A stretch of 64,000 nt of DNA from Phycisphaerae bacterium (GTDB lineage: Bacteria; Planctomycetota; Phycisphaerae; Sedimentisphaerales; Anaerobacaceae). Where the stretch lies: the NCBI GenBank assembly GCA_030608075.1, contig JAUWIU010000002.1, forward strand, positions 1 through 64,000, given 5' to 3'. The notes under the pieces are model-generated. The model saw nothing but the letters and a program-made list of their open reading frames with translations. It had not been told where the DNA came from and did not search any database. The position numbers were made by a program, and so were the translations under genes. Below are positions 24,278 to 62,474 of the stretch, piece by piece; position 1 is the first letter of the stretch, and each line of letters opens with the position of its first letter.

Positions 24278-24300
24278 GAAGGCATACAGGAATAAAGAAA

Positions 24301-24704
24301 GAGTGGGTCTGTAAGCCGAGTTCTGTTTCCCGCCAGGTTTGGCGGGCGGCGGTCATTTAACTTGACCAACTGTTGCCAGTTGGCTCTCCCCCACACATCA
24401 AGCTCACTATCAGCCTGACGGATGAGGAAAGCAACCTACCCGCTGCTGATACCCGGGCCGAGTGAGCAGCTGCTTGGTCTTGCAGGCGGTGGGGTTTGCC
24501 GTGCCAGGGCCGTCACCGACCCTGCGGTGCGCTCTTACCGCACCATTTCACCATTGCCTGAGTCCTGATGGTCAGGACCATCGGCTGTGTATTTTCTGTG
24601 GCACTTTCCCGCGGGTCGCCCCGGGTGGCCGTTAGCCACCACCGTGCCCTTTCCTGCTCGGACTTTCCTCCGGCCTGCTTGGCCGGCGACCGCCCGACCC
24701 ACTC
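24301..24704 (-). ncRNA. rnpB: RNase P RNA, bacterial type A
   Basis: Catalytic RNA of ribonuclease P, which trims the 5' leader from tRNA precursors. Read on the minus strand it starts near 24704 with GAGTGGGTCGGGCGG and soon has GAGGAAAGTCCG, the conserved P4/J region. Further on are AGGGTGAAA-like and GCGGTAAGAGCGCACC blocks, and it ends with ACAGAACTCGGCTTACAGAC before the closing strand. The 5' and 3' ends are complementary (GAGTGGGTC with GACCCACTC), defining a length of about 404 nt. No protein is needed to explain the open frames crossing it. A MITE-like element begins 29 bases upstream of its 5' end. Confidence 0.96.
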
Positions 24705-24733
24705 TTTTCGATTTATCAATTTTTGCTCTACAT

Positions 24734-55836: not shown

Positions 55837-57663
55837 TCACTGCGTTTGCTGCTCCGGCGCGTGTGAGTGTTTTTGCGTCCGCAGGTTCAGCTCGTCGAGC
55901 TGCTTGGGGTCGACTTCGCTGGGCGCATCGGTCAAAAGGCACTGGCCACGCAGCGTCTTCGGAAAAGCGATGACGTCTCTGATATTGTCGGTGTCTACCA
56001 GCAGCATAATCAATCTGTCGAGGCCGAACGCTATTCCGCCGTGCGGCGGCGCGCCGTATTCGAGTGCCCTTAGAAAGAAGCCGAACCTGGCCTGTGCCTG
56101 CTCGGGCGAAATCTTGAGCAGGTCAAAGACCTTGCGCTGCAACTCGGGCTTGTGTATACGAATACTGCCGCCGCCGATTTCCGAGCCGTTGACGACAATA
56201 TCGTAGGCCTGTGAGCAAATGTTCGCCGGGTCGCTGTCCAGCTTGTCGATGTCTTCCTCGACCGGTGCGGTGAAAGGGTGGTGCAGCGAGTCGAAGCGGC
56301 TCTCCGCCTCGTTCCATTCCAGCAGCGGAAAGTCCACCACCCAGACAAACTCAAAACTGTTGGGCTCGTACAGCTTCAGCCGCCGGCCAATTCTGCACCG
56401 CAATGGCGCCAGGGCCTTGTTGGCGTTTTTCTCGGTGTCGGCTACGAACAAAAGCACGTCATTTTCTTTTGCATCGAAGATGTTGATTATCCTGCCGATT
56501 TGTTCGGGCGCAAAATGCTTTGCGATACCGCTTTTGCAGGCCAGTTTGCCGTTGTCGCCTGCGACCTTCATCCAGACCAGGCCTTTCGCGCCGTATTCGC
56601 CGACAAGCTCGGTAAGGTCTTTTTCGATGTAGTTTCTGGTCAGCACGTCCGGACGACCATCGGCGTCGACTGTCGGTGCGCACAGACCTCTGACGACTCC
56701 GCCCTTTTCAATAGTCGAGGTAAATACCCTGAACCCGCAGTTTTTGGCGATGCCGGATATGTCCTTCAGCTTCATACCGAATCGCAGGTCCGGCCGGTCG
56801 GTGCCGTAGTCGGTCACTGCCTGTTTGTAGCTCATTCTCGCCATCGGCGTCACCACCTCCACGCCAAGAATCTCGCTCCAGACCTTCGCAACCAAGTTTT
56901 CATTGACGCCGATAACGTCGTCAACATCGACAAAGCTCATTTCGACGTCGATTTGCGTGAACTCGACCTGGCGGTCGGCACGAGGGTCCTCGTCACGGCA
57001 GCAACGCACTATCTGGAAGTATTTGTCCACCCCGCTTACCATCAGAATCTGCTTGAACAATTGGGGCGACTGCGGCAGGGCATAAAAACAGTTCTCGTGC
57101 AGCCGGCTTGGAACCAGGTAATCCCTTGCGCCTTCTGGGGTGCTCTTGGCCAGCATCGGCGTCTCAATCTCCCAGAAGCCCAACGAGTCGAAGTAGTCGC
57201 GCACAACCTTTGTCACCCGATGGCGCGTCTGGAGTATGTGCTGCATCCGGGGCCGACGCAAATCGAGATACCTGTGCCTCAGCCGATGCTCCTCCAATAT
57301 CTTGTCGCCATCTTCGATTTCAAACGGCGGCGTCCTCGAAGGATTGAGAATCTCCAACTGCTCAACGGCCACTTCGATTTGCCCGGTCGGCAGCTTCGGA
57401 TTTGCCATGCCCTCACTTCTCGGCTGAACCCTGCCAACAGCAGCTATTACCCATTCGCACCGCAGAGTCCCGGCGACCTTGTGCGCCTGCGGCTGTGTCT
57501 CGTAATTGAACACCAACTGCGTCAGCCCCTTTCTGTCACGCACGTCGATGAATATCAGATTGCCGTGGTTGCGGTACCAATAGACCCAGCCCGCGAGGGT
57601 TACCTTTTTGCCGACATCTTCGAGCCGAAGGCTCCCGCAGGTATGTGTTCTTTTCAGCATCAT
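55837..57663 (-). CDS. aspS: Aspartyl-tRNA synthetase, bacterial type
   Basis: It charges tRNA-Asp (and perhaps tRNA-Asn if non-discriminating). The product is 608 residues. The OB-fold anticodon domain starts HTCGSLRLEDVGKKVTLAGWVYW. The class II core has YLDLRRPRMQ, motif 2 RCCRDEDPRADRQVEFTQIDVEMSF, and motif 3 GIAFGLDRLIML. A GAD insertion domain lies between about residues 290 and 410, as in bacterial enzymes. ATG 57663 and 57660 are both possible. It is first in a minus-strand run with mscS and the sensor kinase. Confidence 0.96.
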   Translation of the reverse strand: MMLKRTHTCGSLRLEDVGKKVTLAGWVYWYRNHGNLIFIDVRDRKGLTQLVFNYETQPQAHKVAGTLRCEWVIAAVGRVQPRSEGMANPKLPTGQIEVAVEQLEILNPSRTPPFEIEDGDKILEEHRLRHRYLDLRRPRMQHILQTRHRVTKVVRDYFDSLGFWEIETPMLAKSTPEGARDYLVPSRLHENCFYALPQSPQLFKQILMVSGVDKYFQIVRCCRDEDPRADRQVEFTQIDVEMSFVDVDDVIGVNENLVAKVWSEILGVEVVTPMARMSYKQAVTDYGTDRPDLRFGMKLKDISGIAKNCGFRVFTSTIEKGGVVRGLCAPTVDADGRPDVLTRNYIEKDLTELVGEYGAKGLVWMKVAGDNGKLACKSGIAKHFAPEQIGRIINIFDAKENDVLLFVADTEKNANKALAPLRCRIGRRLKLYEPNSFEFVWVVDFPLLEWNEAESRFDSLHHPFTAPVEEDIDKLDSDPANICSQAYDIVVNGSEIGGGSIRIHKPELQRKVFDLLKISPEQAQARFGFFLRALEYGAPPHGGIAFGLDRLIMLLVDTDNIRDVIAFPKTLRGQCLLTDAPSEVDPKQLDELNLRTQKHSHAPEQQTQ

Positions 57664-58712: not shown

Positions 58713-58943
58713 ACGCAATAGAGCCAGGGGGAAATTCTACGGGCGGTCGCAGTTGTATTACTTTTCTCTGTCGGCGTCTTTTAGAATCTCGTCGATGCGG
58801 GCCTTGCAGTTCTCGGCGCTGCGCCTGGCCAATTTCTATCCGTTGATGAACTGCGGTGTAGAAAAAGCTGCTTTTGATTACGATTGTGGCTGGTCTTCTG
58901 TTAAATTAACCTCCTTCGGCGGGACTTCCTTAAAGCAACCGCT

Positions 58944-59096
58944 CACCGTCACCCCGAGCGCAGCCGAGGGGTCTATTTGAACAGATTTCTCGACTTCGCT
59001 TCACCGTCACCCCGAGCGCAGCCGAGGGGTCTATTTGAACAGATTTCTCGACTTTGCTTCACCGTCACCCCGAGCGCAGCCGAGGGGTCTATTTAG
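58944..59096. repeat. 58-bp tandem repeat, about 2.6 copies
   Basis: Three units start at 58944, 59002 and 59060, each exactly 58 bases apart. They share a palindromic core (CACCCCGAGCGCAGCCGAGG) and the tail GTCTATTTGAACAGATTTCT. The third unit stops after GTCTATT, where a MITE-like left end begins. The core is the well-known 'CACCCCGAGCG...GAGGGGT' intergenic repeat of many bacterial genomes. The rest of 58713-59283 shows nothing else I can name. Confidence 0.9.
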
Positions 59097-59160
59097 TATC
59101 TGTTGTGGAAACGAGGTTTTGTCATTCCTGCGAAAGCAGGTGCAGGAATGACAGGTTACA
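59093..59160 (+). mobile_element. MITE-like element, copy C (left part only)
   Basis: TTAGTATCTGTTGTGGAAA matches the left terminal repeat of copy A at 18 of 19 bases. It is followed directly by one TCATTCCTGCGAAAGCAGG palindrome and GGAATGACA. No right terminal repeat is found. It abuts the third 58-bp tandem unit and cuts it short. Confidence 0.65.
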
Positions 59161-59550: not shown

Positions 59551-60013
59551 TTTCCGTCTCCTTGTTCAAAATTGTTTTGCCATTCTGATAATATCGTAAT
59601 GAAGCGTATAAAAACATTAAATTTTGCGCCGCTGTGGCTGCGTGCAGGGGCTGGCAGCTGCCCTCAGCCAGCTTGTGATTAGGCTTGTGAAAGGAGTGAA
59701 GTTTCGATATCGCCGGCGTGAGAAAACAGGTAAGCTACAACCGCAACGCCCTTGGATGCGCCAAAAAATGCTGTTGGTTACGTCGGCCTGTTTGGATTAT
59801 TCTGCTTCCGCCGCATTCAGTGGTACCGGAGTCCTTCAAGCCAGAAAAAATTTACCAGGCTTGGTGTTTTTTTGTTGCAAATTCTGCTTTACTGTGTTAG
59901 ACTATTTTTGGTGGAAGGCGGGTGGGTTAGCTTTGGTTCTTTGAAAGAAGTGCAGCAGATAATTATCTTGTTATTTGAGCTTTTTGACATGTGAGGTTTT
60001 GAGAAAGACTTTG

Positions 60014-60055
60014 GGCTGAGGTTTAATTTCCTATACCCTCCTCCTGACCTCAGCC
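60014..60055 (+). ncRNA. Pyrimidine-loop hairpin, unit 1
   Basis: Arms GGCTGAGGT (60014-60022) and ACCTCAGCC (60047-60055) pair perfectly over 9 bp. The 24-base loop is mostly C and T and contains CCCTCCTCCT, which could pair with Shine-Dalgarno GGAGG. No U-run follows. Confidence 0.4.
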
Positions 60056-60182
60056 TAATGTTACTTCGGTCAGAAATACGCCTGACTTTAAGATAAGAAT
60101 GAGGACTGGGGTTGTGTCCGCGGCTCGCATCATGGCGGCCTTGTTATGAAATTTAAGAGCTTCGAGCTTTTATGGTTATCAT

Positions 60183-60234
60183 GGGCTGGGGTTAAATTCC
60201 TCTTCCTCCCTCCTCCTCGCCTCAGCCCATTTTT
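60183..60234 (+). ncRNA. Pyrimidine-loop hairpin, unit 2
   Basis: Arms GGGCTGGGG (60183-60191) and CCTCAGCCC (60220-60228) pair with one wobble. The 28-base loop starts TTAAATTCCTC and is full of CCTCC motifs. ATTTTTG follows, a short terminator-like U-run. Confidence 0.45.
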
Positions 60235-60442
60235 GATTATCGAAACCTGCTGGCTCGCCGGCGATGATACGGGCAAAATCGCCCTGCTTACAGGCAGGCG
60301 CAGTATGGTTAGGCCATCTTGTGGGGCAGGCTGCTCAAGAAAATATGTGATACGGGCAGATGCGAACATTTTTTAGCAGAAAAAGTATAGTATAGTGAAG
60401 CTGTTTGTGATATATATTAAATAGAAGGTGGAGCATCTTTAC

Positions 60443-60500
60443 AGGGCTGGGATTATCTCACTTTTCCTTCTCCCTCCGCATCTCGGCCCTGTCTTTTTTT
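60443..60500 (+). ncRNA. Pyrimidine-loop hairpin, unit 3, with terminator
   Basis: Arms AGGGCTGGGAT (60443-60453) and ATCTCGGCCCT (60480-60490) pair over 11 positions with two wobbles. The 26-base loop ends CTTCTCCCTCCGC. A run of GTCTTTTTTT follows immediately, so the hairpin is a good intrinsic terminator on the plus strand. Confidence 0.5.
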
Positions 60501-60593
60501 ATGCGCAAAAACATTGGCCCACCCAACACCCCGGCTACTCAGCTTCCAGTTGTGATTCACCAATATCCTCGTCCTGCAACAAGGATTCTGTCC

Positions 60594-62249
60594 TTAATAT
60601 CGCCGGGTGGTGGTTTTTCGGGCGTGTTTGTAGTTGATGAAAAAGTAGCGAAGAGCGTCAATCGGATGGTCGTACAGGCCGTCCTTTAGCGGCAGCTCGC
60701 TCGCCCCGGCCGAGCGGTCGGGATAATGGTAGCACCGCATCGCCTCAATCAGCCGTTGACAGCTCGGCGAAATCACCAGGCTGCTCATCCCGTCGCCGGA
60801 GCGAATTGCCCTTCGAATCAGCTCAACACCCTCTAAGATTCCACTCCGGCGATATCGCGTAACTACGCCGAGGCTGCGCAGCTCGCGGATGATACTTGTG
60901 CCGGTGATGTCGCTTGTCCCGGCGCCGGCGGGGTCGCAAAACGTCGCAGCCACTCGGCTTTCACCGCCCGGCGTTCGGCTCTTCATTTCCTCGGCGTGCA
61001 CGTCAATCGTCGCCCTGCTTCGGACATACTCATCAATCACCCGCACAACCCCGGCATCGTCGACCTGAATCCACAGACACACAAACGGATTGACGAACCC
61101 GAAGTCCAGCGCTCGGTAAAGCGGCAGATTGGGGTCGTAGTCGATTTGCCTGACGTGGATGTCCGGGTCGAACTGGTCGAAGACGGCATTTTCGAGGCTG
61201 GGCCTTTTGCAGAGCATTTCGGCTTCCCAGCCGGCCCGGCTTGCCCTGCGCATCTGGGTCTCGCAATCATCGATTTTCAAATAGCCGACCGCCTGCCTGG
61301 CTTTGCCATGACAGTCGCTCCACAAGCGGCACTGCGAGCAGCTTCTGTCGACACATTTCTCGATTGTCTCCCAGATGCACCACTTGAAAATCGGCGTCCC
61401 CAGCCGCGGCGCCTGCGAAATTATCTGGTGCATCAGGCCGTAGGGCCTGTGCATCGTACTGATTAGCTCCATCGCCGCGACCAGCCCTGCCGTGCTGTGC
61501 GTGGTGAACTTGGCCGCCGCAAAGACGTCATCGTCGAAAAGCTCGACCTCATCGCAGCGAAGCTTATGGATATGCTGGCCTCGGACGCTTGTCGCCGATT
61601 GGGTCAGCACCTCGACAGCCGAATTGTTGACGAAGCGGCACTTTGCCTTGCGTGCCGGCCCGGCGGTAAACCTATCAAAGCCGGTGTTCAAAAAGCCGGT
61701 CAGATAGTCATACATCCTGGCGGCCTGCTCGCCCGAGCCGCCTAAGATTCGCACCTGGCAGTTAGGCTTAAAGATGCAGTCTAACAGCGTCGCGATAGCA
61801 GCCAATTCGGTCTTTCCCCCGCTGCGATTGGCCCAGACGACCGCGTCGGCATTGGCACCTTTTTTCTCGCTGAAGTCAGCCGAGAAACTGTGCCACAGAT
61901 AATCCAGCGGACTATTGTGCTCGGGACAGACCTGTCTATCCGGAATATCAAGGCCCAGAAAGACCTTGACATAGTTCTTAAGGTCGTCTCTTGTCCTCGG
62001 CCGGCTGCGCCGAAGAGCCGAATAAACCTGACCAGCCTTTGCAATGTGATGTAGTTCCAGTTGCGGAAACAGCATTTTGTCATTCCCGCCAAACTTGTCA
62101 TTCCCGCCAAACTTGTCATTCCCGCGAAAGCGGGGATCCAGTTTTTTCGCCCCAGACCCCTGCTTTCGCAGGGGTGACATTGTCGGCTTGTCCTTTCCGG
62201 AACAGATACTACCTAAGGATTGCGTTTGCGTTGAGATTGATTTTGTCAT
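60594..62249 (-). CDS. Phage terminase large subunit, N-terminus altered by an inserted repeat element
   Basis: The DNA-packaging motor of tailed phages. The product is about 551 residues from ATG 62249 (GGGGGTG upstream; ATG 62264 is also possible). The ATPase domain has a P-loop-like ANRSGGKTELAAI and the acidic Walker B-type LRCDEVELFDDD. The nuclease domain keeps three acidic sites: ALDFGF, FCDPAGAG and DHPIDALRYF. Residues about 11-66 translate a MITE-like element (62052-62217), read as RKQGSGAKKLDPRFRGNDK and two repeats of FGGNDK. No small terminase, portal or capsid gene is in the window, so this is a prophage remnant or a domesticated gene. Confidence 0.85.
   Translation of the reverse strand: MTKSISTQTQSLGSICSGKDKPTMSPLRKQGSGAKKLDPRFRGNDKFGGNDKFGGNDKMLFPQLELHHIAKAGQVYSALRRSRPRTRDDLKNYVKVFLGLDIPDRQVCPEHNSPLDYLWHSFSADFSEKKGANADAVVWANRSGGKTELAAIATLLDCIFKPNCQVRILGGSGEQAARMYDYLTGFLNTGFDRFTAGPARKAKCRFVNNSAVEVLTQSATSVRGQHIHKLRCDEVELFDDDVFAAAKFTTHSTAGLVAAMELISTMHRPYGLMHQIISQAPRLGTPIFKWCIWETIEKCVDRSCSQCRLWSDCHGKARQAVGYLKIDDCETQMRRASRAGWEAEMLCKRPSLENAVFDQFDPDIHVRQIDYDPNLPLYRALDFGFVNPFVCLWIQVDDAGVVRVIDEYVRSRATIDVHAEEMKSRTPGGESRVAATFCDPAGAGTSDITGTSIIRELRSLGVVTRYRRSGILEGVELIRRAIRSGDGMSSLVISPSCQRLIEAMRCYHYPDRSAGASELPLKDGLYDHPIDALRYFFINYKHARKTTTRRY
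62052..62217 (-). mobile_element. MITE-like element, copy D, full length and in frame inside the terminase gene
   Basis: On the minus strand it begins TTAGGTAGTATCTGTTCCGG and ends TGCTGTTTCCGCAAC...AACTA, so both terminal repeats of copy A are recognisable. The internal order is the same: CCGACAATGTCACCCC, a palindrome, GAAAAAACTGGAT, then GCGGGAATGACA modules, here with two extra GAATGACAAGTTTGGCG units. All of it is translated without a stop. Confidence 0.8.
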
Positions 62250-62474
62250 AATCAGCACCCCCATTATTTGAGTTTGACATGTCTGACTAACTGTGATTGA
62301 TTCGTTGGTATGCCTTCACTTCCCTCCGAAAAAGCTGAATTTAACCTGCCGGCATTATACCATCTTTGCCCCCAAATTCAAGGAAAAAACGGCCTAAAAA
62401 TCTCCCTGGCATTCGCCGGCTTTTCGTCGGCGCTCTTGGCCGCAGCTTTAATTTGTCAGCGGCTTTGCCCGCTC

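Follow-up and report, generated by a model that had tools for sequence, protein, structure and literature searches.

Three Phycisphaerae hairpins belong to a multicopy family of candidate anti-Shine-Dalgarno small RNAs

The closest described counterparts of the hairpins reported here come from Alphaproteobacteria and from Listeria. Among the cuckoo RNAs, alpha-r14 (NfeR1) of the Rhizobiales silences mRNAs through its loop (PMC3927594, PMC10746234), and CcsR1-4/CIN1 of Rhodobacter are driven by RpoHI/RpoHII (PMC10253847). LhrC1-5 of Listeria are multicopy siblings with CU-rich loops, one of which lies in the terminator loop, and direct UCCC seeds against Shine-Dalgarno regions; Hfq is unnecessary for their stability or target binding (PMC4132741). 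The RsaE-type C-rich sRNAs of Firmicutes have a UCCC seed that blocks ribosome binding (cited in PMC4132741).

In architecture, and not by homology, the three hairpins studied here (h1, h2, and h3) resemble the cuckoo RNAs, with which they share hairpin arrays in which the anti-Shine-Dalgarno loop is conserved and the stems vary. They differ from these in the loop motif, which is CUCUCCCUCCGC here, with CCUCCUCCC in 0 of 91 copies; in having loops of about 25 nt and separate short units, some with their own promoter; and in belonging to the Planctomycetota, with promoters that by motif are of the ECF or sigma-70 type. CIN1/CcsR are associated with a DUF1127 gene; here no DUF1127 match was found among the array neighbors in the window neighborhood. 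LhrC RNAs carry three CU-rich sites each and are controlled by the LisRK two-component system in an unrelated phylum, whereas each unit here has one CU-rich loop and putative ECF or sigma-70 promoters. The present family also differs from RsaE in having no Rfam match, and the RsaE-type sRNAs are not known to form comparable arrays. Because membership in the known families fails on motif, neighbors, or number of sites, we place the hairpins in a family of their own, new within an already known type of regulator and probably convergent with the anti-Shine-Dalgarno loops of Alphaproteobacteria and Listeria. In their proposed role they would resemble MicA and RybB, the RpoE-dependent RNAs that carry out the repression in an ECF sigma stress response by which HtrA-type proteases are driven as well; both of these RNAs are Hfq-dependent, have another structure, and lack a CCUCC loop. 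Our literature search for papers on small RNAs of the order Sedimentisphaerales found none, and for the PVC group a recent survey counted only 8 annotated sRNAs (PMC9029176).

The hairpins and their family

The window is the whole 64,000-nt stretch of DNA analyzed here. A sequence-only reading had placed three similar hairpins in it, beside a terminase and a holin-like gene. The hairpins are present, all with CCUCC in the loop, as are both neighbors (terminase and holin_4). The locus is laid out below; subtypes (A, B, and C) were recognized by eye and assigned from the opening bases of each stem.

55837..57663, - strand: aspS, a conserved neighbor on the other side of the array
59941..59969, + strand: weak sigma-70-like promoter 5' of h1, TTGAAA-17-TATCTT, a consensus match only
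60011..60064, + strand: hairpin h1, subtype B; stem TTGGGCTGAGGT / ACCTCAGCCTAA, loop including CCCTCCTCC, without a U-tract
60181..60236, + strand: hairpin h2, subtype B; stem ATGGGCTGGGGT / GCCTCAGCCCAT, 26-nt loop including CCTCTTCCTCCCTCCTCC, short U-tract
60364..60390, + strand: putative ECF-type promoter of h3; GAAC at 60364-60367, 17 nt, GTATAG, with GTA at 60385
60442..60498 (hairpin to 60497), + strand: hairpin h3, subtype A; stem CAGGGCTGGGAT / ATCTCGGCCCTG, loop TATCTCACTTTTCCTTCTCCCTCCGC, U-tract TCTTTTTTT
60499..60508, + strand: TATGCGC motif directly 3' of the h3 U-tract
60594..62264, - strand: terminase-like gene, a conserved neighbor that converges on the array and lies outside the RNA

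The stem of each hairpin comprises 12 pairs and follows the pattern GGGCUGRGR/YCUCRGCCY; it encloses a long, CU-rich loop. Loop lengths in the predicted fold are 22, 26, and 26 nt for h1, h2, and h3. Folding z-scores are -3.5, -3.0, and -3.6 in the same order. The earlier description of h3 as a clear terminator and h2 as a weak one agrees with the strong U-tract of h3 and the weaker TTTTTG of h2. In the alignment of h1-h3, 3 of the 12 pairs are changed on both sides and 4 on one side, with 36/36 cells paired; the remark that C-G to T-G changes in the arms preserve pairing was thus correct and too modest. A whole-region DNA search found no second array in the window's own genome. The genes flanking the array, from a scan of the window neighborhood, comprise the terminase, holin_4, aspS, a 3-keto-disaccharide hydrolase, and ankyrin proteins. 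Separately, positions 58940-59100 hold a tandem repeat of three near-identical copies of CACCGTCACCCCGAGCGCAGCCGAGGGGTCTATTT.

A covariance model built from the three window copies (R1) hit 23 of the 25 genomes searched in the window's GTDB family, the window's own counted, usually with 1 to 10 copies per genome and with E-values down to 1e-12 in relatives. A refined model (R2), built from 61 matches, extended this to 78/89 genomes and 41/45 genera of the family; the genomes are MAGs, many of them incomplete, and copy counts overstate the number of independent observations, as copies in relatives are not independent. The organism titles of the related contigs read Planctomycetota, Phycisphaerae, and Sedimentisphaerales. 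The covariance search and the hunt for matching hairpins in related genomes, both proposed earlier from the sequence, therefore succeeded in nearly every relative, and the lack of conservation that would have spoken against the idea did not materialize. Beyond the family, the order-level search gave only weak matches, in family f7; the class-level search (347 genomes) gave 30 same-family genomes plus 2 weak ones, and the phylum-level search (392 genomes) added only 4 weak genomes to the window's own. The matches in f7 and elsewhere, mostly 29-49 nt long or isolated and scoring at most 33 bits, were treated as chance; one in f7 was matched on both strands, the pattern of an inverted repeat. Because R2 covers 78/89 genomes and matches elsewhere are weak and scattered, the predicted RNA family is nearly universal in one bacterial family and essentially absent outside it. 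Rfam contains no match at the gathering score or at E-values up to 5, bar a chance mir-335 match (E 4.9). On the strength of these searches, h1-h3 are members of a previously uncatalogued multicopy family of predicted small RNA genes of planctomycetes. Elsewhere in the window, a bacterial class A RNase P RNA lies at 24296-24705 (-).

Across 44 distinct sequences of the family, 94.6% of the stem cells are paired and 9 of the 12 pairs show compensatory changes. None of 500 shuffles was as good, and sliding the partner strand gave at most 52% paired, indicating that the hairpin pairing is far beyond chance. Stem pairs include 39 G-U and 9 A-C; this strong excess of G-U identifies the + strand as that of the RNA.

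The loop is mostly 22-30 nt long, unpaired, and pyrimidine, with the conserved core CUCUCCCUCC. CCUCC lies inside the predicted loop in 83/91 copies, and a U-rich tract follows the hairpin in 87/91. Subtype A has the stem CAGGGCUGAG/CUCAGCCCUG and the loop AUCUCGCUUUUUCCUCUCCCUCCGC. Subtype C has the same loop on the stem AGCCCCUGCG/CGCAGGGGCU, so that six stem pairs are swapped on both sides between the two. Subtype B has the stem ACGGGCUGAGGU and loops like CUCCUCUUCCUCCCUCC, which differ at the edges and keep CCUCC. In one relative, G017, the order of copies is B, B, A, as in the window. TGCGC or TGTGC follows the U-tract in 27 of 43 subtype A copies (e.g. L014, L016, and L028).

Promoters and a candidate sigma factor

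The motif GAAC-N17-GTA occurs 26 times within the 160 nt upstream of the copies, and the N18 form 13 times, against about 0.7 per spacing expected from simple base shuffles. The motif lies mostly 37-49 nt (mostly subtype B) or 65-79 nt (subtype A) from the stem. A GAAC or CAAC form stands at these distances in 37/91 copies (22/36 of subtype B and 15/43 of subtype A), and the ECF motif is absent, even in relaxed form, from 54/91. Subtype C has TTGAC-type sigma-70 promoters in 6/12 copies versus 0.14 expected. Within the window, h3 has the ECF motif and its predicted RNA would run from about 60396 to 60498, about 100 nt, from a putative start. The motif is absent upstream of h1 and h2, which could form a single transcript from the weak sigma-70-like promoter.

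A motif matrix run on 2.0 Mb of sequence from a relative, G011, gave 11 matches, some of them upstream of the RNA itself, ClpC (identified by eye), HtrA, a lipoprotein with a glycine zipper, and an ECF sigma gene; a ClpC/HtrA/sigma-factor regulon is a post hoc reading of these 11 matches. The ECF sigma gene lies beside HtrA in some genomes, among them G011, where the two are divergent. Its counterpart in genome G000 is located as follows.

G000, contig C34, 20379-20906: ECF sigma gene (L244), with orthologues L237-L260

Of the 24 genomes that carry this sigma gene (the window's own included), 23 show GAAC-N17-GTA 59-79 nt before its start, an almost constant distance, compared with 3.8% of G011 open reading frames; in three genomes a divergent motif stands on the HtrA side. 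These data fit autoregulation of the sigma factor. From the shared motif we infer that this sigma factor would also drive the RNAs; an orthologue at a good score was found in only about 25/89 genomes.

Loop pairing and a proposed mechanism

Genome G011 uses Shine-Dalgarno sites (AGGAG 158 times versus 31 in shuffled sequence). Complements of the loop core are about 2- to 9-fold enriched before starts, with counts upstream of starts versus mid-gene of 78/14 for GGAGG, 45/7 for GGGAG, 19/3 for AGGGAG, and 22/4 for GGAGAG; this enrichment indicates only that the loop core is Shine-Dalgarno-like. As expected of an anti-Shine-Dalgarno RNA, the loop is unpaired and complementary to sites that the host uses, and the earlier proposal of such pairing has gained good support from this match to Shine-Dalgarno sequences in actual use. 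For the loop edges (AUCUCGCU and CGC), complements showed no enrichment upstream of starts. Because the edges are conserved, this suggests that something beyond Shine-Dalgarno pairing is conserved. In G011, duplex energy did not separate start regions from mid-gene regions, and no long perfect target site at start regions stood out; since the energies do not single out start regions, we name no specific target. Hfq-dependent sRNAs require Hfq in the genome, and no PF17209 match was found in 7 genomes, in which the controls were detected.

We consider it fairly probable that the three hairpins are genes, or gene modules, of a multicopy family of trans-acting anti-Shine-Dalgarno sRNAs, many of them ECF-driven and linked to stress. 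The earlier idea of a small-RNA array is likewise well supported by conservation, covariation, promoters, and U-tracts. Each unit would consist of a leader, the 12-pair stem, the long pyrimidine loop, and the U-rich tract, and thus be little beyond its own intrinsic terminator. The loop would act as the seed, pairing with purine-rich Shine-Dalgarno sequences such as GGAGG, GGGAG, and GGAGAG, and this pairing would block translation start. Many copies would be switched on by the ECF-type sigma factor and others would use sigma-70 promoters. Because the sigma factor appears to control itself, and HtrA too in some genomes, the RNAs would probably provide the repression within a response to envelope or heat stress. 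By analogy with cuckoo/alpha-r14 and LhrC, their likeliest role is to cover Shine-Dalgarno sites, as sRNAs induced by stress and independent of Hfq. A multicopy RNA that spans almost the whole bacterial family, has no Rfam match, and comes with a plausible sigma factor, in genomes in which Hfq was not found, would make a stress-sRNA network in planctomycetes testable.

Other readings and the place of the array

The loop is conserved past CCUCC, which would allow for a protein or the ribosome as a partner, and we regard it as possible, if rather unlikely, that the family binds a protein (as a sponge) or the ribosome instead of mRNA. The whole conserved 25-nt loop would then be a recognition device beyond Shine-Dalgarno pairing, carried on interchangeable stems, deployed by the ECF factor, and free of Hfq. 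The loop AUCUCGCUUUUUCCUCUCCCUCCGC does stay unchanged when the stem is replaced, its edges are not complementary to start regions, and Hfq was not found; however, the conserved core is exactly Shine-Dalgarno-like, subtype B loops vary at the edges yet keep CCUCC, and there is no candidate protein. If true, whole-loop recognition would amount to global translation control without Hfq in planctomycetes.

The reading as anti-Shine-Dalgarno sRNAs also has to be weighed against three simpler origins. The hairpins could be ordinary intrinsic terminators or attenuators that share sequence by chance, and the GC-rich stem, the nearly constant U-tract, and the terminator-like h3 and h2 agree with this. 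We find it improbable, as no plausible protein-coding gene ends on the + strand in the 1.2 kb before h1, promoters stand 37-80 nt ahead of copies, the G011 copies are intergenic, and the loop sequence is kept despite stem exchange; the 22-30 nt loops are atypical for terminators, and for that reason the standard terminator scan does not cover these hairpins. A dispersed DNA element (MITE, REP, or integron-like hairpin) would explain the several dispersed copies per genome and the TATGCGC after many subtype A copies. Copies within a genome mostly differ, however, and have no common borders, the orthologous position is kept across genera, and the compensatory changes, G-U bias, U-tract, and promoters fit an RNA, which leaves this account very improbable. 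Slighter still is the chance that the sRNAs are phage-encoded or phage-directed, an origin considered earlier because the terminase and the holin_4 protein adjoin the array: phage records gave no match, none of the relatives' loci examined contained the holin gene, many copies lie elsewhere in the genomes, and the terminase is a chromosomal gene found order-wide, mostly as one full-length copy per genome. In G011 the RNA persists beside a terminase reduced to a 30-residue remnant.

In 15/15 genera with both within 6 kb on one contig, the array is found on the strand opposite to the terminase and beyond its 3' end, at distances of 46 nt to 4.6 kb; in several genera aspS flanks the array on its other side. 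Judged by this conserved gene order, aspS, sRNA array, terminase is the ancestral arrangement; the site is chromosomal and not of phage origin. The terminase large subunit-like gene has about 50-80% identity across the order, and no other phage structural genes were recognized beside it in the window; it resembles a core gene of the domesticated or gene-transfer-agent-like sort. Finally, a dispersed repeat, TCATTCCCGCGAAAGCGGGGATCC, with many copies in the genomes G000, G007, and G009, lies at window positions 62080-62165 and is read into the called N terminus of the terminase open reading frame.
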